DNA from: Malus domestica
Taxonomy: Eukaryota > Streptophyta > Magnoliopsida > Rosales > Rosaceae
Direction of reading: 5' to 3'
Length of the DNA: 64,000 nt
Assembly (NCBI RefSeq): GCF_042453785.1
Contig: NC_091672.1
Span: 2,733,001-2,797,000 of the forward strand
Shown: positions 49,912-64,000 of the stretch, piece after piece
How the letters are laid out: each line of letters opens with the position of its first letter
Position numbering within the stretch: position 1 is the stretch's first letter
Made by a program: the position numbers and the translations under genes
Notes under the pieces: model-generated
Databases searched by the model: none
What the model saw: the letters and a program-made list of their open reading frames with translations, nothing else
What the model was told of the DNA's origin: nothing

Positions 49912-50011
49912 CCCACTCAAGTTTTCTTGGTTCCAAAGTTTTATACTTACACTTGTAGCACACAAGCACCAGTAATGCTCCTTTCTCCACGTTGGTTTCC
50001 AGATAAATAAA

Positions 50012-50163
50012 AAGGAAAACTAATGAAAATGCTTGAAAACTATGAGTTTTAACGATAAGGACAAAATAAAGGGTAAAATGAATAGTACTAGGATTGACTT
50101 TTTAGTGTAAAAATGTGATTTTTCGTTAAAGTAAACAGTATCGGGAGTTTTTCGTTAAAGTTC
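50012..50163 (-). repeat. Dispersed repeat of about 153 bp, copy 4
   Basis: AAAGGAAAACTAATGAAAAT ... GTTTTTCGTTAAAGTTC, in the same orientation as copy 2. Confidence 0.85.
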
Positions 50164-50169
50164 TCTGAA

Positions 50170-51470
50170 TAAAATGCATCTTTAATTGTATGTCTATGTT
50201 TATTAGTTTTTGAATCAATCGTCAAGTATGAAGAGGTATAAAAGTGATAATTCTAATGTTAAATTTGACAACAATATATAGTTTTTTTTAATTTTTTAAT
50301 TTTTATTTTTAATAATCTTATATTACATTATTTATCCTATCACTCATCAATTCAGAAGATGTAGTTTTATTTATTTATTTATTTATTTATTTTATGAATC
50401 TTATATTAGTTTTTAAACTGCAAAAGAAAAATTATACTTGGTTTCACAATTGATGATGAGATGGATACCCATTAACCCGGTGGGGGCTAGACTCGGGTGG
50501 CTCTATTCCATCTGAATTTTCAATTTTTAGCTACTAAATACTTATTTTATGATACTTCGACTTGGATATCTACGTGGACACCGAAATAGAGGAATGTTGA
50601 TCTACATCCAAAGTAATATATTCCCAGAAGGGAAACTTAGAAGGTCCATCATTGCCAGAATAAAATAGCTAAAATAGAAATTTTACAAATTTCTGTTGCT
50701 AAAGTGATGAAAATCAAATAACGACACCAAACAACAATCAATCTAACTCTTCACGGAATATCGACAAAATCTCAAAAAATAATCATTTCACCAATCTATA
50801 ATCCATTTGTGTTATCATAATTTTGCCATTATCCCCCAAATATGTAACGTTAGGAAAAAAGTCTCAGGTGAACTTGGCGGTTTAGCCAAATGAAGAACCG
50901 CGCGCATTTCTTTTCATTTTCCCTCTCTTATTAGCGCTTTCTGATGGCAGCTTTTCCAGAAAATTTCGACTTAAATAGCTTTTCTGACAGCGGATTTTCC
51001 AGAAAAGTTTGATGGGGTTGCTAAGTGCTAACCCCTGATTTCGAACAGAGGCTTTTGTGCGGTGAATGAATTCTGGGTAAGCCCATCTTCTACTTTTTAT
51101 TTTTAATTTTTTTTATTTTTTCTGCTTCTGCTTTTCTGTTTGGTAATTAATTGGAAGATTTGGGATGCCATTGATGGACAAAGCTTCAAACTTTATTTTG
51201 TTATATTTATATTTGTGATACCAGTGATATTGGGGACCTAAATTTTATGATTTATTGCAATTATTTGTCTAAACTTTTGTGAGTTGAGTCTCCTAAATTT
51301 CATAAAAAAAAACCCTAAATCCCACTGAAAAATTGACACAATCGTGTTCACATTATATCTAGATTAGAGAGGAAATACTCAAATATTTGCATTAATCTTG
51401 TTTTCTTGTCCTTAATCTTTGTAGGTGTAGGTACTAGGTAGATGTTCTTACCAAAACAGAAAGAAATCTT
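50170..51470. other. Upstream region of F-box copy 3
   Basis: AT-rich, with a (TTTA)n run at about 50367-50392. From about 50655 on it is similar to 28540-28740 and from about 50870 to 30700-31350, so it carries the duplicated promoter, leader and 5'UTR intron of the F-box unit. Confidence 0.6.
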
Positions 51471-51478
51471 AGTGTGTC

Positions 51479-53047
51479 ATGGAACGCAAGGGTAAGTTAT
51501 TGGCTATTGCTTGTCCCGAGAGCGTAGTAGACAGGTTTAGTAATCTTCCAGATGAAGTCGCTCATCACATTCTTTCGGTTGTCTCTTTAAAAGAACTCAT
51601 TCGAATAGGCACCCTGTCTAAAAGATGCAAAGGGCTTTATCTCTCAACCCCGTCATTGAAATTTTGGTCATCGTACTATGGAGATAAGCAGGGCCAATTA
51701 AACTTGCTCAATTCTTTCGATAGGTTTTTGATTCTTCGCGGGGGTAATAAGGTACACAAGTTTGAAGTAAATTTGGAACTCTGTTCAAGCTTACCTGATG
51801 AGATTTTCCGAGTGATCACGTGGATCCACATTGCAGCAAGGTGTAATGTTGAAGTGCTTGATCTTCAGTTGAGGGTACTAAAAAATGATATGGCTTTGTT
51901 TGAATTGCCATCTTGCATCTTTCTTTGTGGATCTTTGAGGTCTCTAATTGTGAACCTGTATACAGTTCTTAAAGTTCCCTCCTTTGCCGGTTCCACTAAT
52001 CTCCAACACTTAAAGTTGACTGAGGTTCAAATAGATGACCGCTTTTTCAAATGGATCTCAAGTTACTGCAATGCATCAAGGAATTGCAGCTTTATGATGT
52101 TAGAACAGTAAATATCACCATTGAAAACTCATCTTTGGAATCATTTAGGTTTGTGTCATATAAAAGTGGCATCTGCCATCTTAACATCTCAGGTGAGAAA
52201 CTTGAAGATATTCATGTAGATTGGGAATATTATCAACCTGGCAGCAGATCATTAACTATTTCTGCTCCAAATCTCAAATATTTCAAATGGATTGGGAATT
52301 TATTGAACCGCCAGAATCTCAGGGAATTAATGTGTTTAGAAAAGGCAGAGATTTATTTGAAGCCTAGTAGAGATATCTGTGACTTTGACAACGCATCCGA
52401 GTTTCTTTGCAGTATATGCAGGGTTAAAGTTCTTCTTCTAACCCATGAGACCATGAAGGTAAAGATGCACTACCTTGCAGACTAATATTCTCTTTTGGCC
52501 ATATTGTATCTGTTTTGGGATCTATAAAAGGATATTACAGGGAACATATCTTGGCTATGGGGTTATGACGCGCCGATAATAGATTATAGATAGCTAATTT
52601 GTGTTTCTTAAACTACAAAGTGGTTTTAAAATTGAATATCTTTGGTTTTACTATAGTAGAGACATCGGACGGAATGAAAATTAAAGGAACACTTTGTATA
52701 TTGTTCCGCTTCTCTTCCTCATGTCTCTCATCTCAAAGTATAAACCTTACCAAAAGTATGAAGCAATTGATTTGACCTATGAATTTGGAAGTATTATATG
52801 GGCTTGAATATATGAACAATTGATGATTAGGCATATTTCTTGAAAATTTGTGTTTTGCTCAACTTTGTAGCTTTGCTGCTGTATTATCTTATAGGCTTTA
52901 AGGGATACTTTCATCTTTTCAAGAGTCGCCTTTATAATATTGCAGGCTTTGTTTAAGGAAGTTTCCATGCCCCTGCCGTTCGATAATGTTTCTTACTTGG
53001 GTTTGCGCATTACGAGCTTGAGTGATGACCTAGTCCCAGCAATGGTA

Positions 53048-53080
<33 letters not shown>

Positions 53081-53456
53081 AATGTCCGTTAGTTCAGGGA
53101 CTGGCACTTCCTTGTTTCATAGTTTGTATTCATATTGCTACTTTTCGTGTGTTTTGGAATTTTTTTTTTTTCTTCTATTGATTTGGCTGTTGTGTTTTCA
53201 GGCACGTGGGTGTAATAGGAAATACTGGAAATCCCAAAAACTGAATTTTACAGATCAGCTTAAGGAGGTAACAATAGAGCTTTCCAACGGGTTCAATGCC
53301 ATGGAGTTAGCAAGGTATATTCTCGAGGAAGCTCAGCATTTGGAGAAAGTGTTCATATTCTATTTACCCCACCAGTCATATGTCATAAAAAGAGTAAATC
53401 AAAGCAAGAAAGTATCCGCTGCCAAAATTGTCTTTCGCAAGAAACAGCGGAGATGA
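51479..53456 (+). pseudogene. F-box/LRR/FBD-type protein, array copy 3 (pseudogene)
   Basis: A close paralogue of copy 2 with the same exon plan (exon 1 51479-52458, exon 2 from 52946, exon 3 53202-53456). Two lesions are visible. A 1-bp deletion at about 52068-52072 (TGCAATGCATC against TGCAAATGTATC in copy 2) shifts the frame and gives a 210-residue product ending in CSFMMLEQ. Exon 2 is also cut after its ATGGTATCTCT, which runs straight into a CT/CA microsatellite, so the last third of exon 2 and its donor site are gone. The F-box itself is preserved (SNLPDEVAHHILSVVSL). A truncated F-box-plus-partial-LRR protein could still be made. Confidence 0.88.
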
Positions 53457-53889
53457 TGTGCAAAGCAGGTTCTGTATTACTCAAAAGATTTTGTGAACAG
53501 AAGCTTAAACCTTGTAAATTTTGCTTTTAAGGTTTTGAACAGACTTGGAGCTATATCGTTGTGTTTGGTACACTTGCAAATTCGGTATCAGGTAGAAATT
53601 GATAGATCAAATTGTGCACAGTGTTAGTGTTTTGGATAGTTTTAGGCTTAATTTCTCTGTGTATTTCTAATCAATTCAACAAGTAATTGAAATGAGATTG
53701 AAGAAGATCTATGGAAGATGAAATTCAGAGAAGAAAGGAGTACATAGCTCCTCCAATCTACGTTGGATTTGATACACCAAAGTTGGCTTACATGGTGGGA
53801 TTTATAGCCGTTGCATACCCACACACACACACACTTGCAGCGTGACTGATCACGTGCACAACACATGTTTTCATTTAACTTCTAACAAA

Positions 53890-54660
53890 CTAGACACGTG
53901 GCAAAGTATACACCATAGTGATGATATAATCCCATTCGTACATTACATTATTTGAATATCAATTGCTCTAGCACTTAGAACCATTTGAACTCCATTTCCT
54001 TCTTCAATTCTTCTGCTGCTATGCATTTGTGATCTAGCTACCATGCTTATCCACCAACATTACCTTCTAAGCTAGTAGTTGGTTTAACTCCAAGCTTCTC
54101 TCTGAGTGTGCATAATCGATCTTTGGGAAGTGCCTTGGTGAAAAATATCAGCAAATTGATCCTCTGATTTACAATAGATTAGCTTGATGATGTTTAATTG
54201 CAATGTTTCTCGAATGTTATGATATCTTCTTCCAATGTGCTTTGTTCTTTGATGGAACACATGATTTCTTGTTAGAGCAATGGCATATGTATTATCGTAG
54301 TAGAGATGAGTAGCTTCAGTTTATTCTTCACCAAAATCTTGAAGTACAAACCTCAACCACACAGCTTGTGTGGTTGCTTTTGTAGCACTCATGTACACAA
54401 CTTCAGCTGTTGACAATGCAACATTGTGTTGTTTAACTGAGGCCCAAGAGAAAACCCCACTTCCAAATGAGAAAGCATAACCAGACGTGCTTTCCATATC
54501 AATTTCATCTCCACTCCAATCATTGTCACAATAGCATATGAGAATTGATTCATTGCCTTTCTCATACTCAATTCCGTAATCTAGTGTGCCTTGTATATAT
54601 CTGAGAACTCTCTTAGCTGTTCCCAAGTGCTTCTTTGATGGTCCATGCATAAATTTAGCA
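53890..54660 (-). pseudogene. Copia RNase H/3' fragment after F-box copy 3
   Basis: The minus-strand reading at 54321-54650 gives HGPSKKHLGTAKRVLRYIQG, CDNDWSGDEID, STSGYAFSFGSG and ALSTAEVVYMS, a Copia RNase H domain. The following part to about 53890 corresponds to the C-terminal region and 3' end. No LTRs are intact. The same fragment, cut by the L1, follows copy 2. Confidence 0.85.
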
Positions 54661-54665
54661 AGTAA

Positions 54666-55649
54666 TTTAAGTTAAACTTAATTTAGTTTGGGGTCTTAAT
54701 ACGCTAATAATTTAAGTTAAACTCAAGGAGATTTTGCTGATTTGGAAGTTTTGAACCTTAAAAGCATGAACAGAGCTAACTTGCGCCCACTCGTCCTCGT
54801 GAGGAGGGTTTAGTTCGAGAAAGTCAGAGCAAATAGTCTGGGAGTTTTTCATACTTATATGTATGTCTTCTTAGTTTTTGCCTATACAAATACTATATTT
54901 TATTTTAATTTTGGACAACAACATGTTAAGTAAAATTGATCATGGTAATGATAATAAAGAACTCTCATAATAAAAATAAATAATGACTAAAACTTTTTTT
55001 AAAAACTTATATAGAATAATAATACAACCTTTTTTATATAGAATAATAATATAAAACTATATATTTAATATAGAATATATTGTATATATTAATATGGCTA
55101 TTGTATTTTATAATAAATTTTTTAGTAATTGAACTTTAAAATTATCAAAATAAATTTTTTTCTTAATGGGTCGAAACGGGTTACCCACGTATTACCCGCG
55201 TGTATACTTGTTAAGAACCCGTTATTTACAGGTTCTTCACGGGTCACCCGATAAGGACCCGATAAGTTATCGTGTTGATCCGAAACCCGTTATTTTCGTG
55301 TCGTGTCAGAAACTACCAGGTTTACTTCCGTCCCACATTTTCCCTCATCATTAGTGCTGGTACTGCAGATGCAATTATATACTATAATTTGGATCTATAG
55401 CGTACAATTTGGTGAAGTGGGCATCCATATAAAGGCACATTACCAGATTTTCAATACATATACGATAAAGAAACTTTTAAAAGTGAGACTTTTTATGGAT
55501 TTTCTGTTATTTTATATTTTTAGCATAATGTTTTATAACGGTGGTATGTGAATTAACGTTAAATTGTCAGGTGACAGAGAGTCCATAAAGAGCCACACGT
55601 CTTCTTAGCATTCTCTTTGCAAAATTGCTTTTGTTGCTAGAGAAAGCAG
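54666..55649. other. AT-rich spacer before the Gypsy-derived element
   Basis: Contains the duplicated spacer phrase TAATTTAGTTTGGGGTCTTA (54675 on). At about 55168-55310 it holds a repetitive patch built on ACGGGTTACCC, TTACCCGCGTG and AACCCGTTATTT, which looks like a degraded dispersed repeat. No gene was seen. Confidence 0.4.
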
Positions 55650-56603
55650 TGTAAACACGGAAAATTCCTGAAACGAAAGAGACAAGAACAACGTGCACAA
55701 ACAAATATTTGTATTTAATGATTTTGGGTTACAATCTCTCTCAATTTTGATCCTCTGATTCGATCTCCGTAAGGTGTTGATTTGTGGATGTTGCGTTGAT
55801 CCAAGGGTCGTTGAGGCTTGATCTTGGATGAACTGTTGGAAGTTTCTTCAAATGGCCGTGGGCTTGATCTTTGAAGGTGGATTTGAACGGATCTTCAAGG
55901 AGCCGTTGGGGCTTGATCTTGAGGATGAATGTTTCTTCAAGGGCCGTTTGAGGTTTGATCTTGAATAACGGTGATGAGCGGATCTTCAAGTGCGTTTGGG
56001 CTTGATCTTTGAAGAACGGTTGGATGTGTGGATTTGTCGACGTTGTTGATCCAAAGGGCCGTTGGGGCTTGATCTTGGATGAACGGATGATGAACGATGG
56101 TGCTTTCTCGAAGGGCCGTCGGGGCTTGATCTTGGAAGAACGATGAACGAGGAACGAATAACACTTTCTTCAAGGGCCGTCGGGGCTTGATCTTGAATTG
56201 GTGGATGATTGTTGATCCAAAGGGCCGTTGGGGCTTGATCTTGGAAGAACGATGAACGAAGAACGAAGAACACTTTCTTGATTCTTCGGGAACCTGGATG
56301 CTTGAGAGCTTCGGAGTTTCAGAGCTTCAGAGCTTCAAGGTGTAATATGAATTGGTTCCTCCCCTCAAATGAATGAATTAGCCTTCTATTTATAGAAATT
56401 TCCAAGGCCTAATTTTGAATATAATATTCCAGATGAAATAAGTCGTTTCTGCCAGGTGTTGACACGTGTCATGTTTGATGACTTTTCCAACTTATTTCGA
56501 TTTTTGTTTAGACACACGCTACGTGTAAAATTTATGTAATACATGAGCGTTGAAACTTTAATTTATCGGTCAACATTTATTTACCGAAATTTCGATGTCT
56601 ACA
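55650..56603 (-). repeat. 3' LTR of the Gypsy-type element
   Basis: 954 bp. Between about 55840 and 56250 it contains eight or nine copies of a core close to GGGCCGTTGGGGCTTGATCT. Confidence 0.95.
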
Positions 56604-56689
56604 AATGCCCCCACTTCAAGACGCGTTGTATACATGTGCTTGTCGTGTGTAGGAGATGCGTTTTGAAGTCCCTTATTGTAGATGTCGAT

Positions 56690-57250
56690 CCAAGGGCCAT
56701 TTGAGGCTTGATCTTGAATTGGGCCGAAGATTTCTTCAAGGGCCGTTGAGGCTTGATCTTGAATTGGGCTTGAGATTTCTTCAAGGGCCGTTTGAGGCTT
56801 GATCTTGAATTGGGCTTGAGATTTCTTCAAGGGCCGTTGAGGCTTGTTCTTGAATTTTTTGTTTGAAATTTCTTCAAGGGCCGTTGAGGCTTGTTCTTGA
56901 ACTTTTGTTTGAAATTTCTTCAAGGGCCGTTGGGGCTTGATCTTGAAAGTTGAAATTGGACCACAAGGAGCTTCATGTGGTAGATGATCCTTGGCTTTGG
57001 TAGTGGATGAATCGGCACGTATTTGTTTTTGCGCTTTGTTGACTTTCCACAGCTTTGATCTTGAACTGGGTTGGAGGATTTTCTGGATTCCTCCAATTGT
57101 TGATTTTCCACAGCTTATTCTTGAACTAGGTTTTGATTCAAGAGTGGTAGACACTTGATCTTGAATCGGACTTGTGATTTCTTCCAGGGTCGTCGAGGCT
57201 TGATTTTGAATTTGGCTGGAAGCTTCTTCAAGGGCCGTTGAGGCTTGATT
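56690..57250 (-). repeat. Minisatellite in the 3' interior of the Gypsy-type element
   Basis: About eight units of about 45-60 bp, each with TTTCTTCAAGGGCCGTTGAG and GCTTGATCTTGAATTGGG. The same core fills the LTRs. Read on the minus strand it gives the peptide repeat IQDQASTALEEI within an open frame at 56570-57451 (293 codons). Confidence 0.85.
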
Positions 57251-58344
57251 CTTGAAGGTTGACTCGAACATATTGCAAGCAGGCACGAGGTGAAGGTGAC
57301 GATTTGTTGCTTTGTTCAATCTTTCTAATTCACACCTGAGCAGTTTGGTCAGCGGTATGATCTTCAAGATTGATGGGGTTTTCTTCCAGTTGATGACTTG
57401 ATCTTTAAGGATTTGATTCAAGGGTGGTGAATCGGCACGTGCAGCCCACAACGCTTAGTAAGTCGACCCAAGAATTTGAGGGTCAAAACGAGCTCACCGT
57501 CCAGAGTGATTGCAACCCTGATGATATGAGATACTTTTGATTTTGAAGAAGTAGCGGATGAATCGGCACGTGCTTTGTTGTGCTTGTCTCCACATCCTTC
57601 AATGTATTATTTTCCCTTGCTTTATCTGTTCCTCAGGCAGAATGTGGCATCTTCAAGAGTTCTTCATCTCAAACTCTTTCTGCTGAGTTGACTATGCATG
57701 CTGCATTCTTCTCTGCTTGTTTCTTCAGGCAAATGTGGCAGCTTCTCGAGTTCCTCAGTTCGGACTCCTTCTGCTGAGTTGACTGTGCAGACCGCATTCT
57801 TCTCTGCTTGTTCCTTCTGCACGTTGTCTCCACATGCTGCAACGTATCATTTTCACTTGCCTTATCTGTTCTTCAGGCAGATGTGGTAGCTTCTTTGGAA
57901 GTACAGCAGCAGTGGGAGACGAGTACTCGAGAGCAGTGCTAGGTAGGCAATCAGGGAAGGGTTCCAAGCAGTCGGTTCCTTACCCGAGTTTGAGTGGAAG
58001 TTCCGGCATATTGCTTTCTTTATCCTTGTCTTTGCAGGTAAGAACAAGGACAAAGGAAAGGACAGGGAGAACGCATGATATGAGATACTCTTGCTTTCTA
58101 CCCTAGTGATATGAGATACTTTTGCTTTAGTGTCATTTGTTTGCAAAGGTACCCCAATGAATAAGGAACACTGAGTAACTCGAGAGGCTTCGTTGGGAAG
58201 GCATTCTCAGAGATGAAGAAAGGTCTGTATGTCTGCCTTGCTATGGAGGGTGAAGGTGGACAGTTATAGGAAGTTCTTTAACACCTGTAGAGGTAATATT
58301 CTTTCACTCGTGTCGGCAACCGTTGGATGTTTGAATAGTAAACT

Positions 58345-58620
58345 TCACGTGCTTTCTCCTTCACCCAAAAATCTTCGACAAATTGTCCGTGATTTGCGCA
58401 AAGTTGAGTGTGCATATGACAGGTGTTGACGAGGCTGAAAAAGACTGGCGCCTCTTCGATATCTGGGATCGGCGATTCGAAAACTTGCCCGTGATTTCCG
58501 CAAAGCTGAGTTTGCGTGTGACGGGTACCGACGCGTCTGGAAAAGCAAGATGCTTCTCCGATTTCTGAGCTTGCCTCTTCGATTTTTGAATGGCCTCTTC
58601 GAATTCTGAGCTCGCCTCTG
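58345..58620 (+). repeat. Two diverged units of about 110 bp before the antisense ORF
   Basis: AATTGTCCGTGATTTGCGCA and ACTTGCCCGTGATTTCCGCA begin two imperfect copies. They may be part of the leader or promoter of the antisense ORF (inference). Confidence 0.5.
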
Positions 58621-58760
58621 AAATCTCGTCAAGTGCTAATTTTTTATAGAGGCATGCAGTTCGTTTCAAAACACACTTGAATTTTCGCTTGTGAAAACTC
58701 CCCTCTTGTACTTCTAAGATCTTGATTTGTCCGATCTCTTCTTCCTTTAACACTTTGAAA

Positions 58761-59372
58761 ATGTCTGGACACTCCGACCGTCGTTTTGACTTGAATCTTG
58801 GTGAAGAGGCAGTCCCGCCTTCTCCAGACAACATATGGCGCCCATCCTTCATATCCCCCACTGGTCCTCTTACCGTTGGGGATTCGGTGGTGAAGAATGA
58901 TATGACCGCTGCGGTGGTGGCCCGAAACCTTGTCACTCCCAGAGATAACAGACTACTTTCCAAACGATCTGATGAGTTGGCTGTTAAAGATTATCTGGCT
59001 CTCAGTGTGCAGTGTGCAGGTTCTGTGTCTAATATGGCCCAACGCCTATTTACTCGAACCCGTCAAGTTGAATCATTGGCGGCTGAAGTGATGAGTCTCA
59101 AACAGGAGATTAGAGGGCTCAAGCAGGAGAATAAACAGTTGCATAAGCTCGCACATAGCTATGCGACAAACATGAAGAGGAAGATTGACCAGATGCAGGA
59201 ATCTGATGGTCAGATTTTACTTGATCATCAGAGGTTTGTGGGTTTGTTCCAGCAGCATTTACCTTCATCTTCTGGGGCTGTACCGAGTGCTGAGGCTTCA
59301 AACAGTCAACCTCCGGCGCCTTCTCTTCCTGGAGCTCTGCCGAGTTGTGAGGCGCCACCTGATCGTCCTTGA
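58761..59372 (+). CDS. Antisense ORF of the Gypsy-type element: coiled-coil protein of unknown function
   Basis: A 203-residue ORF on the strand opposite to the element's own transcript. The start at 58761 (gaaaATGTCTGG) gives MSGHSDRRFDLNLGEEAV; an ATG 39 bp upstream is also in frame. Residues about 85-150 have heptad spacing (RQVESLAAEVMSLKQEIRGL, then QENKQLHKLAHSY), predicting a coiled coil, and the tail is Ser/Pro-rich. The N-terminal FDLNLGE resembles an EAR-type DLN motif, but only weakly. I recall similar ORFs annotated in Rosaceae repeats, not in named gene families. The frame is uninterrupted although the rest of the element has no intact enzyme genes, which suggests it is retained. 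Function unknown. Confidence 0.55.
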   Translation: MSGHSDRRFDLNLGEEAVPPSPDNIWRPSFISPTGPLTVGDSVVKNDMTAAVVARNLVTPRDNRLLSKRSDELAVKDYLALSVQCAGSVSNMAQRLFTRTRQVESLAAEVMSLKQEIRGLKQENKQLHKLAHSYATNMKRKIDQMQESDGQILLDHQRFVGLFQQHLPSSSGAVPSAEASNSQPPAPSLPGALPSCEAPPDRP

Positions 59373-59479
59373 AGATCCCCTCTTGTAAATTTGATTTAAT
59401 TTGATTTTTTTTTATGACATGTGGAATGCGAATTTATGTAAATTTTTTAGAGAAATAAATAAAAGATGGACTTTACTAA

Positions 59480-59487
59480 ATGCATTA

Positions 59488-59530
<43 letters not shown>

Positions 59531-59870
59531 GTTTCTCATGATGCCAGATGCACCATCACTTCCCTTTTAATCATTTTTTTCTTTTTTTTTCTTTTCTTTT
59601 CCATGGTGCCAGATGCACCATCAAAATTTTCTTTTATTTTTTTGTTTCTTTCAGCGGTGCTCACACCCACCACAATCATGAACCTCTTTTTTTTGTTTAA
59701 TTAATTAATTTATTATTATTATTTTTTTTTTCCGGTGCCACATGCACCTTCCCTATTTTTTTTTCACGTGGTGCTAGCACCACTTTCCTCCACTATCCCA
59801 TTTTCTATTATATTTTTTTTGTATAAATTTCGATGATGGGCTGGGCGAATTTGCAGGGAGCGGAGCAAGA
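59480..59870. repeat. (TA)n microsatellite and T-rich spacer
   Basis: A (TA)n run at about 59488-59528, then T-rich sequence with three repeats of a phrase close to GGTGCCAGATGCACCAT (about 59540, 59605 and 59735). Confidence 0.8.
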
Positions 59871-59997
59871 AGGCCGAGAAGATGGAGGAGATGTGGACAG
59901 ACGGTGCCAACGCTTTGGAGCTGGGTTCTTTGCTGGGCTTAGGCGTTGCGCAACGGAGAGGGTGCCTAGATGATGTACTGCATCACCACCGCTTGCA

Positions 59998-60235
59998 CCA
60001 TGAAGATCTCTCTGTTAAAAGCTTTGAGCAAACTCCACAAGACTGCAAATCTATGGAAGGAGAACATGAGAACCTGCTGCTGGATCCAGTTAGCTTTCCA
60101 TGGATAGAACCAAAGTTCTCACTGTCAAAAGACCATTTTTCCCTTTGAGAATAGGCCACGAGCTCAGAAAAGGTAGCACCAGCCATCAGAAGACCCACCT
60201 AGAGATCCAGTCGCCAAGTCATTGCTGCAAGTAGA
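59998..60235 (-). pseudogene. Captured fragment of a RING-type zinc finger protein gene
   Basis: The minus strand reads LSTCSNDLATGSLGGSSDGW, then after a 1-2 nt shift TFSELVAYSQREKWSFDSEN, and finally SPSIDLQSCGVCSKLLTERS. This order matches a plant RING/U-box family in which a Ser-rich region (STCSNDL..GS.GGSSDGW..RTFSELVA) leads into the first RING cysteines (CG.CSKLLTERSSW). It breaks off after the second cysteine of the RING. The source assignment rests on my memory of the family. The frame shift and truncation mean it is not functional. Confidence 0.55.
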
Positions 60236-60680
60236 GAGAGTCAGAGGTGGCGGAGACAGAGCCTGTCCTCCAATGCTGGCGATGAGAGAGCAGATGAGTG
60301 CCACGTTGAAGATGTTTTATCTCGGATGCTGCTGCTCTACCATGGTTCAGAACGACGACGAGGTCGTAAGTTTGGAGACGCAGGTTTGCACAGAGGATGA
60401 GCGGAGGATAAGGGCTGACGTGAAGGTCCACTTGCTCCGGGTGTGCACACCATGTGCAGCAGGCCGGGTTTGGTGGAGTGAGGCAGCAGAGAGCAGCACA
60501 AAGACCGGTGAAGATGACGGCGGAGAACAAGGATTGCTGAGTCTGGTTGCTCATGAAAAGCTGCGGGTTCAGAATCTACGGCTTCTCATCCGGGCTGCTC
60601 TCAAATTGCTGCTGTCGTTCGAAAACCCCAAACCGGCGAACCCGAAATTTGGGACCGAAACGCCGCTGCCCCAATTAGAT
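60236..60680. other. GC-richer segment between the two captured fragments
   Basis: Clearly richer in G+C than the rest of the element, with overlapping ORFs on both strands (60219-60554 minus, 60222-60689 plus). It may be further captured exon sequence, but I recognise no domain. Confidence 0.35.
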
Positions 60681-60945
60681 CGAAATTAGGGCCCTGATCA
60701 ACGATTCCCAACCCGGCGTTGCTGTCGAAATCAATGGGGCTGTTGTGGTGGTTGCCCTTCCCGCTCTGCAATAGCTGCTTGAGTCCACACGACATGTCAT
60801 CCACATCCCCGGCTATCCACCTCAGCAGAGACGTCGATTTATCACCGCCACCACTGCCGTTGTTAAAAGACGGAGAGAGAGTGGAAGCCAAAGTGGGTGG
60901 GCTCGGGTTTCTTCTCATATGAAGAACAGAATTGGGCTCACCGCG
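60680..60945 (-). pseudogene. Captured fragment of a GRAS-family gene (SCL6/SCL27, HAIRY MERISTEM-like)
   Basis: Within a 162-codon minus ORF (60601-61089), residues about 50-135 read GEPNSVLHMRRNPSPPTLAS, then LLRWIAGDVDD, GLKQLLQSG and NAGLGIVDQGPNFD. This resembles the variable N-terminal half of HAM-type GRAS transcription regulators (EPTSVLD..RSPSPPTS.STLSSS, EQS.LR.I.GD, FG.VD.G.GF). The expected stretch between the Ser-rich part and the LR.I part is missing, as in a rearranged copy. The GRAS domain and the miR171 site are not present. Source assignment is from memory of the family. Confidence 0.5.
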
Positions 60946-61699
60946 GAAAGCTGTTGAGGTGGAGGAGTCGCAGCGGATGTGCGGGAGAAAGATGAGAGTT
61001 AGCTGAGAGACGGGCCTGGATTCCAGCTTGAGATCCGTGAGCTCGCCCGACCTGGATTTGGGTGCCCTCTGGGTGCCCCGAAGTTCCACAGAGACGGAGG
61101 GAGAGGGAGGAGAGATTCACGAGGGTGGTAGTGCTGTTGCGCCGTCATCGGGGTGGCTCTGGTACCTCGTTATGTGGGTGCGGGCTCGATCGGCGAGAGA
61201 GGGAGATCCGAGAGAGTGCGAGAGATGAGAAAAGATCCGAGTGGAGATGGGCTTTGAGAGCTGGGCCTGGATCTGTGCGTTGTGGAGATGGCGGAGAGAC
61301 TGGGCTTGGGCTTGGTGTTGAAAGAGGGCAGCACCGCAGATGGGTTCGACGAGTCTTCGTTGTGGGTCGTAGTGGCCTTTACACTGTGTTGTCTGGATTT
61401 GCACATCCTCCAATTGTTAAGACCTTAGAGTCCATTCTTATATATATTTGTTTTTTTGTGTTTTTTTTTTTTTGTAAATACATAATAACATATGTATTCA
61501 TTTTTTTTAACTGTAATCTAATTTTGTACAAAGAAATTGTAATAACATAAAAAAAAAAATCTTATTCTTCATTTTGATGTGACTGAACTCGAAGTTGAAT
61601 GTTCGAGATGCCTACGTACCCCTCCAATGAAGAGATCAAGTCATAACGTAGTTCAAAAACATACATATTTTTGGTATTTTCGTTTTGTGCCGTTTGCAG

Positions 61700-62235
61700 T
61701 TTTAACTCATGCAGGCAAGGAATGTTGGTGTCGTTTGCAGTTTCAACTCGTGCAGGCAAGGAGCATTTGGTGCCGTGTTGCAGTTTCAGCTCGTGCAGGC
61801 AAGGAGAGTTGGTGTTGCCTTTTATGCTCGTGCAGACCAGGAGTGTTGTGCCATGCAGTTTAGGCTCGTGCGAACAAGGAGCATTTGGTGCCGTGTTGCA
61901 GTTTTAGCTCGTGCAGGCAAGGAGCGTTGGTGTTGCCTTTTATGCTCGTGCAGACCATGAGCGTTGTGCCATGCAGTTTAGGCTCGTGTAGGCGAGGAGC
62001 GTTGTGCCATGCAGTTTAGGCTCGTGTAGGCGAGGAGCGTTGTGCCATGCAGTTTAGGCTCGTGTAGGCGAGGAGCGTTGGTGTTGCCTTTTATGCTCGT
62101 GCAGACCAGAAGCGTTAGTGTTGCCTTTTATGCTCGTGCAGACCAGGAGCGTTGGTTCGTGCAGTTTAGGCTCGTGTGAACAATGAGCTTTGGTTCGTGC
62201 AGTTTAGGCTCGTGCGAACAAGGAGCATTGGTTCG
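61700..62235. repeat. Minisatellite of GCTCGTGCAGGCAAGGAGCG-type units
   Basis: About a dozen units of 40-50 bp built on GCTCGTGYAGRCRAGGAGCG followed by TTGGTGTTGCCTTTTATG or TTGTGCCATGCAGTTTAG. It lies just downstream of the gag stop. Confidence 0.85.
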
Positions 62236-62940
62236 TCAAGCGATCTGAGAGAGTCGTTCCTCGCAATCTTCATAGCAAGGAGCCTTGACCGAGTGATTGA
62301 AGAAGTCTTCAGGAAAGAAATCGCGCATCGTGATGGGGATGGATGATCTATGTGTCGAAATTTCATCATCTTCAACACTTTCATGTTGCTTTGAAGGTTG
62401 ACAAGAGCTGCTTTGCCTCCTTTTCGATTGGCGGACATGTGGAGGAGACGTATGCTTCTTGTGCAATTTCTTAGGAGTGACTTGAGTCCATCCTTCAACT
62501 TTGCTTGTCTTGGAGGATGCCCCCAGCGGTTGAGGTGAAAACTTTGAGTCGGAAGAGCCAGAAGTGAAGGTGGTATAGTTTGACTTCACCACATCGTCAA
62601 GATCTAGCTCGATGATTCCTTTCTGAGCCAGCTTCATGATGAGATCTTTCAGCACGAAACATTTTTCTGTCGGATGACTGATGAAGCGGTGGAATTTACA
62701 GTACCTTGGACTGTCAGTGCGATCCATCTCTTCTGGCCGTTTGCACTCAGGCAAACCAATCACCTTCTTTTCCAGCAAGTCTTCTAACATGGCAACCACA
62801 TCAGAGTCGGGGAATGGATAAGTCATCTCCTCAAGCTCCTTCAAAGTGCGTCTACGCATCTCTTGATCACGAAAAGCTTCGGTTTGAATCGCCTTGCCTC
62901 GTGTAGGGATTTTGACGGGAAAGAGATGAGAGGCAAAGAT
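62236..62940 (-). pseudogene. Gypsy gag C-terminal remnant
   Basis: A minus-strand frame, also open into the LTR, with TLKELEEMTYPFPDSDVVAM, LPECKRPEEMDRTDSPRYCK, FHRFISHPTEKCFVLKD and LAQKGIIELD. This matches the part of plant Ty3/Gypsy gag that follows the retrotrans_gag domain and contains a Cys-His pair region (YCKFHR..HPTEKC). The N-terminal gag domain is missing, and there is no pol after the stop at 62236. The C-terminal 100 residues are Lys/Ser-rich and unique. It could still yield a short protein. Confidence 0.7.
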
Positions 62941-62975
62941 GAGAGGCAGAGATTGTCCCACTGGGCGTGCCAATT

Positions 62976-63929
62976 TGTAAACACGGAAAATTCCTGAAAC
63001 GAAGAGACAAGAATAACGTGCACAAACAAATATTTGTATTTGATGATTTTGGGTTACAATCTCTCTCAATTTTGATCCTCTGATTCGATCTCCGTAAGGT
63101 GTTGATTTGTGGATGTTGCGTTGATCCAAGGGTCGTTGAGGCTTGATCTTGGATGAACTGTTGGAAGTTTCTTCAAATGGCCGTGGGCTTGATCTTTGAA
63201 GGTGGATTTGAACGGATCTTCAAGGAGCCGTTGGGGCTTGATCTTGAGGATGAATGTTTCTTTAAGGGCCGTTTGAGGCTTGATCTTGAATAGCGGGTGA
63301 TGAGCGGATCTTCAAGTGCGTTTGGGCTTGATCTTTGAAGAACGGTTGGATGTGTGGATTTGTCGACGTTGTTGATCCAAAGGGCCGTTGGGGCTTGATC
63401 TTGGATGAACGGATGATGAACGATGGTGCTTTCTCCAAGGGCCGTCGGGGCTTGATCTTGGAAGAACGATGAACGAGGAACGAATAACACTTTCTTCAAG
63501 GGCCGTCGGGGCTTGATCTTGAATTGGTGGATGATTGTTGATCCAAAGGGCCGTTGGGGCTTGATCTTGGAAGAACGATGAACGAAGAACGAAGAACACT
63601 TTCTTGATTCTTCGGGAACCTGGATGCTTGAGAGCTTCGGAGTTTCAGAGCTTCAGAGCTTCAAGGTGTAATATGAATTGGTTCCTCCCCTCAAATGAAT
63701 GAATTAGCCTTCTATTTATAGAAATTTCCAAGGCCTAATTTTGAATATAATATTTCAGATGAAATAAGTCGTTTCTGCCAGGTGTTGACACGTGTCCTGT
63801 TTGATGACTTTTCCAATTTATTTCGATTTTTGTTTAGACACACGCTACGTGTAAAATTTATGTAATACATGAGCGTTGAAACTTTAATTTATCGGTCAAC
63901 ATTTATTTACCGAAATTTCGATGTCTACA
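62976..63929 (-). repeat. 5' LTR of the Gypsy-type element
   Basis: 954 bp, nearly identical to the left copy. A TATAAATA box on the minus strand at 63713-63720 is the likely promoter. Confidence 0.95.
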
Positions 63930-64000
63930 AGCAGTTACCTCTATTTGGTCACCAATTGATTGGGTTAGCTTATGAGATAAATGCCACACGCATGCCTTTC

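Follow-up and report, generated by a model that had tools for sequence, protein, structure and literature searches.

A high-copy family of apple LTR elements that carries pieces of host genes in a variable slot

The capture of host genes by plant LTR retrotransposons has an early example in the maize element Bs1, which captured three host genes (PMC13317346). The family described here is like Bs1 in that LTR elements hold pieces of several host genes but differs from it in that many copies carry different gene sets. Genome-wide, 672 LTR-captured genes have been reported in rice and 1,343 in sorghum (PMC3726574); these are likewise host genes located within LTR pairs, but they are annotated genes counted across a genome, whereas here a single family combines a variable slot with multi-gene patchworks. 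With respect to mechanism, reverse transcriptase has been proposed to jump from one packaged RNA to another in plant LTR elements, among them VejuL and BARE-2, template-switch chimeras of the Triticeae for which the proposed RNA jump is the same as here (PMC1950507). However, VejuL and BARE-2 are described as having taken in unknown or other-element sequence (PMC13317346), whereas the donors in the present family look like spliced host mRNAs. In apple itself, the high-copy LTR repeat HODOR (9,716 bp; sequence KX869746) has been described (PMC13334179); the likeness to the present family lies in similar size, high copy number and the presence of LTRs, and the two may be related. The non-autonomous LTR elements of the TR-GAG and LARD types have LTRs and gag with no detected pol, as is the case here. 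To our knowledge, the definitions of TR-GAG and LARD do not include variable host cargo. Host-gene capture by LTR elements is already known from Bs1 and from the genome-wide counts, and it is the variable-slot family that is new within the literature searched, where neither this family nor any LTR family with a variable multi-gene slot is described.

The window analyzed here is a stretch of 64,000 nucleotides (C12:2733001-2797000 of the searched genome, which comprises 651 Mb in 19 contigs). An LTR element spans window positions 55650-63929, with the minus strand as its sense strand, and shows the paired LTRs, TG..CA ends and short target duplication of Ty3/Gypsy-type elements; the two LTRs differ by 9 substitutions and 2 gap columns (K2P 0.0095, ~1%). 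In element sense, gag is followed by a minisatellite, a GC-richer block, an AT/T-rich tract, an ORF on the opposite strand and the 3' LTR:

63930..63934, no strand: target-site duplication AGCAG, right copy
62976..63929, minus strand: 5' LTR, 954 bp
62236..62920, minus strand: gag remnant, shortened compared with relatives
61684..62230, no strand: minisatellite on the gag side of the slot, repeat families D3 and D7
59860..61550, minus strand: variable cargo slot
59373..59859, no strand: AT/T-rich tract
58761..59372, plus strand: antisense ORF, counted from its ATG, with weak coiled-coil-like matches, high copy
55650..56603, minus strand: 3' LTR, paired with the 5' LTR
55645..55649, no strand: target-site duplication AGCAG, left copy

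Approximately 1.3 kb of sequence found in relatives such as L009-L011 is absent from the window copy between 62920 and 62937, and the window gag ORF yields no Pfam match at E<=1. The gag of one relative, L011, matches Retrotrans_gag (PF03732, E 1.1e-13) as well as, below the cut-off, Ty3_capsid (8.4e-4), and it is by way of this relative that the gag is assigned to the Retrotrans_gag/Ty3 capsid type. No pol domain was detected in 8 window ORFs or in the cargo ORFs of at least 90 aa from 22 slots. The genome search with the antisense ORF produced 3,855 first-look candidates, from which 40 were scored, namely the window and 39 other copies with 95-98% identity over almost the full length; the copy number of the family is therefore to be read as a number of first-look candidates, mostly unscored. 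Outside the element, the window contains, by eye, an ORF resembling a Ty1/copia RNase H fragment (54321-54650, minus strand) and two overlapping ORFs resembling an F-box/LRR protein gene (51479-52485, plus strand).

What does the slot of the window element contain? The original prediction recognized a fragment of a RING-finger gene at 59998-60235 and a fragment of a HAM/SCL6-like GRAS gene at 60680-60945, both in element sense. When 59870-61420 was searched against the genome, the 40 candidates that were scored yielded 58 matches, which fall into 39 places; 32 of these (20 + 12) were examined and 7 left out. Both parents were found, and the GC-richer block (59860-61420) proved to contain 244 bp of a RING gene and ~430 bp of a GRAS gene, both of which read sense on the minus strand:

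59995..60238, minus strand: RING-gene exon piece (L021 4950-4702, 229/249 identical, 92%)
60826..60965, minus strand: GRAS piece, N-terminal block (L022 5158-5299, 128/142, 90%)
60605..60832, minus strand: GRAS piece, middle block (L022 4729-4957, 216/229, 94%)
60535..60614, minus strand: GRAS piece, downstream block (L022 4454-4533, 78/80, 97.5%), also in L009-L011

The RING piece lies inside an exon ORF (L021 4381-5391) of its parent on C3, and this ORF has RING Pfam matches under curated cut-offs (best E 2.6e-5). The GRAS assignment held as well, but the extent is larger than predicted (60535-60965 in total) and is broken by internal deletions: the three blocks are collinear with L022 at 90-97.5% identity, and ~195 and ~200 bp of parent sequence are skipped between them, at short imperfect repeats. 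The parent L022, on C4, is an intronless, uninterrupted ORF of 801 aa with a GRAS domain (E 4.2e-93). It carries an exact miR171-type site, consistent with a HAM/SCL6 identity; the site falls outside the captured span. The window shares 87 21-mers with L022 and 20 with L021. The original prediction also considered that small RNAs from the captured fragments might act on the parent genes. Matches of 80-249 bp at 90-98% identity are not due to chance. Thus, as in Bs1, pieces of host genes with parents in the genome are found between LTRs. Neither piece spans a parental intron, given that the RING piece sits inside one exon and the GRAS parent is an uninterrupted ORF. When the element was compared by BLAST with the 32 places, further element sequence came up at 28, and none was found in the stretch examined around L021, L022, L031 and L037.

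Could the two pieces be old element sequence that merely resembles RING and GRAS proteins? Such an explanation would fit the remaining blocks of the slot, which are common to family members and for which the genome search gave no host gene as source:

59875..59994, minus strand: block X, common to other members
60239..60534, minus strand: block Y, common to other family members, with ~60412-60483 repeated at many short places
60966..61420, minus strand: block Z and its neighbour, shared pieces, parts of which are repeated at many short places

The original prediction suggested that the neighbouring unassigned sequence might be captured as well; parts of the blocks recur in various relatives, but none of the blocks could be traced to a host gene. 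A possible source of block Z is L031, which shows 85% identity to window positions 61013-61230. At L031 (C14:31086500-31089200), an ORF that looks lectin-like by eye adjoins the block-Z-like sequence. For the RING and GRAS pieces, the notion of long-standing element sequence is refuted by the collinear 90-98% nucleotide identity to single host loci and by the patchy presence in the family, the RING piece being absent from 24/33 and the GRAS piece from 27/33 family loci, and we consider it practically untenable.

The captured pieces have a history within the family. The RING piece is present in 9/33 and the GRAS piece in 6/33 family loci, so that neither is common to all members, and both have host counterparts; all of these occurrences (9 RING, 6 GRAS) belong to the set of 28 loci that were chosen for sharing some slot piece with the window, and the other 5 loci, which were reached via the antisense ORF, have neither. 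One end of the RING piece, at L021 4950, is common to the window, L009-L011, L012 and L024, and the other, at L021 4702, to the window, L009-L011, L014, L015, L016 and L018; the copies of this piece form three groups, each with a different internal deletion. Because relatives have identical breakpoints, the RING piece of the window is inherited and was not captured by the window copy. The divergence of this piece from its parent is ~8%, far in excess of the ~1% between the LTRs, and therefore the capture is older than the window insertion, provided that the rates are similar. The original claim that an LTR element with no detected pol captured host genes is supported by the presence of both parents in this genome and by the sense orientation of the pieces, except that the RING piece was not this copy's own capture. 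The GRAS gene is represented elsewhere by 82 bp at 100% identity in L009-L011, by 264 bp in L028 and by 435 bp in L039/L040, the last of which includes 200 bp missing from the window copy. By eye, L036 126-680 (plus strand) and L056 961-1272 (minus strand) are pieces of another HAM-like GRAS gene. The HAM-like GRAS gene family seems to have been captured repeatedly.

Comparison of the relatives identifies the slot as a hypervariable mosaic. Among 15 relatives with both anchors (L013, L014 and L017 left out; outliers kept, namely L026 with 0.14 in the left flank, and L020 with 0.15 and L023 with 0.72 in gag), the median coverage of the window parts is 0.99 for the left flank, 0.21 for the slot and 1.00 for gag. 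In 120 slot pairs, the window included, the median shared fraction is 0.11, and 58 pairs share less than 10%. Both sets of figures overstate the sharing because the relatives were chosen for cargo in common with the window; L037, where 2.5 kb of sequence gave no further match to the element, was kept outside the family sets. The cargo of the relatives' slots, mostly sense, includes P450, PLAC8, JmjN, amino-acid transporter, aquaporin and thioredoxin sequences. The members that were selected via the antisense ORF and not via cargo (12 in all, of which 5 were examined) comprise L052-L055, with a nearly identical cargo set, and L056, with a different one; in our own reading of the genome matches, a 2-kb stretch of the L056 slot is made up of about eight pieces from different sources. 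At the left edge of the slot, the match ends at 59857-59860 in 13 of the 24 relatives that match there, and beyond this point the members have at least 5 different continuations (by eye); the recurrent stop hints at a preferred switch point. An intron-free piece of the amino-acid transporter (query 946-1270) is found unbroken at six more places (C7:24892066, C14:24097808, C1:15279987, C9:18813933, C13:23717483 and C16:31778583). It seems that one captured piece of this gene has been amplified.

The cargo is strongly biased in orientation. In 22 slots, at Pfam E<=1e-4 and for ORFs of at least 90 aa, 21 families were detected in 112 sense ORFs vs 3 in 86 antisense ORFs, a count to be read with the provisos that the sense ORFs add up to more sequence (15,465 vs 10,984 aa), that several Pfam families come from one gene and that some slots are partial; the near duplicates L010, L011, L020, L026, L033 and L040 are omitted, as is L014, which has no right anchor. 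The sense families include P450, Aa_trans, HSP70, PLAC8, LRR and aldolase along with CCCH, JmjN, ankyrin, plant zinc cluster, tocopherol cyclase and POX, and the antisense ones are Histone, NAD-GH and GUB_WAK_bind. In L052 and L056, 10 ORFs were picked by hand, and a Pfam match was obtained for 4/5 sense and 0/5 antisense ones. One piece of L018 (query 1005-1191 of L018:5030-6900:-, corresponding to L043 390-576) is antisense and comprises the terminal part of an ORF that looks kinase-like by eye, together with sequence past its end; the other parents with assigned orientation are sense. Such an antisense piece could result from a switch during plus-strand synthesis.

Did the cargo come from DNA or from RNA? 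The cargo of five members (L009, L018, L032, L035 and L056) was searched against the genome and the parent loci were then compared. All 14 parental introns examined, from 7 genes in 5 relatives and all GT..AG in element sense, are absent from the cargo, as in RNA-mediated capture of the Bs1 kind, and not a single one is kept, as would be the case in Pack-MULE or Helitron capture:

L018: pectate-lyase-like (label by eye), 3 introns absent
L009: PLAC8, 3 introns absent
L032: SMG1-like (label by eye), 1 intron absent
L032: second gene, parent L050, 2 introns absent
L035: amino-acid transporter, 2 introns absent
L056: NPH3-like (label by eye), 2 introns absent
L056: nucleoredoxin-like, 1 intron absent

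Twelve of the 14 were scored by script: the GT..AG split fits no worse than any other in 9, and for the three L018 introns another split beats it by one base; the third PLAC8 intron and the nucleoredoxin-like intron were read by eye. Pfam supports the labels PLAC8, Aa_trans and thioredoxin-like, and the WRKY piece of L032 was labelled by eye. Because introns had been sought only where the parent split into separate genome matches, the unbroken parents were checked for open frames. Five of them (L042, L046, L047, L048 and L051) are stop-free in element sense over 95-100% of the match, and therefore no retained intron shows there; L043 is non-coding in element sense. We infer that the RING and GRAS pieces of the window entered by the spliced-mRNA route too.

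The best explanation, to which we would assign a probability of roughly 0.87, is template switching onto spliced host mRNAs followed by deletion and exchange among copies. Under this scenario, the elements, a high-copy LTR family that has gag and, in the place expected for pol, a variable slot, would obtain reverse transcriptase in trans from a partner element that presumably encodes the enzyme. During DNA synthesis, probably of the minus strand, the reverse transcriptase would leave the element RNA, copy segments from one or more spliced host mRNAs, which are likely to be co-packaged, and return to the gag side of the element. Each new copy would then start with the cargo of its predecessor, some of which would be deleted or swapped with that of other copies; the window copy carries an inherited RING piece and, with two internal gaps, a GRAS piece. 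Two junctions between unrelated parents have bases in common, 6 bp (AGGACG) in L018 and 11 bp (AGTGCCATTGC) in L032, in the latter case with the cargo now differing at 2 bases; combined with the intron loss, the sense bias and the side-by-side arrangement of gene fragments, these overlaps fit template switching. In our own reading, several internal-deletion junctions show an exact overlap of 0-3 bp only (the mean for a simulated random join is 0.67), and because other junctions thus show little exact overlap, microhomology is used as supporting evidence only.

The short overlaps bear on capture at the DNA level, whereby a nested Helitron, a Pack-type DNA transposon or filler DNA at a break brought in genomic pieces. 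A mosaic built of many short pieces is what Helitrons typically show, and the overlap at several junctions does not exceed the length expected by chance; nevertheless, with 14/14 introns missing, a strong sense bias of the cargo and 0 inverted-repeat pairs of at least 30 bp in window 50000-64000, we find this route highly improbable. The intron-free state of the copies would be equally expected of processed pseudogenes that a LINE inserted singly into the element and that were later fragmented. We give this scenario very little credence, considering that the pieces are internal gene fragments, adjacent in one slot and mostly sense, and that two junctions have bases common to unrelated parents.

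Returning to template switching, a more specific version can be entertained in which the element has a built-in capture site, such that reverse transcriptase would repeatedly exit at 59859/59860, sample several spliced mRNAs and re-enter at the gag-side repeat. The candidate exit point comes after TTTGCAGGGA (plus strand). We put this version forward tentatively and consider it to have appreciably less than an even chance of being correct.

For genome annotation, the slot carries a risk, namely that the chimeras could be called as genes while containing stretches identical to real regulators. At the same time, the different intron-free, mostly sense patchworks amount to many natural events in which switch sites, the choice of mRNAs and the rules of junction formation could be measured. 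Should the built-in capture site prove to be real, this family, which has gag and thousands of candidate places, would be a continuing machine for exon shuffling at the RNA level, the copies of which exchange their cargo.
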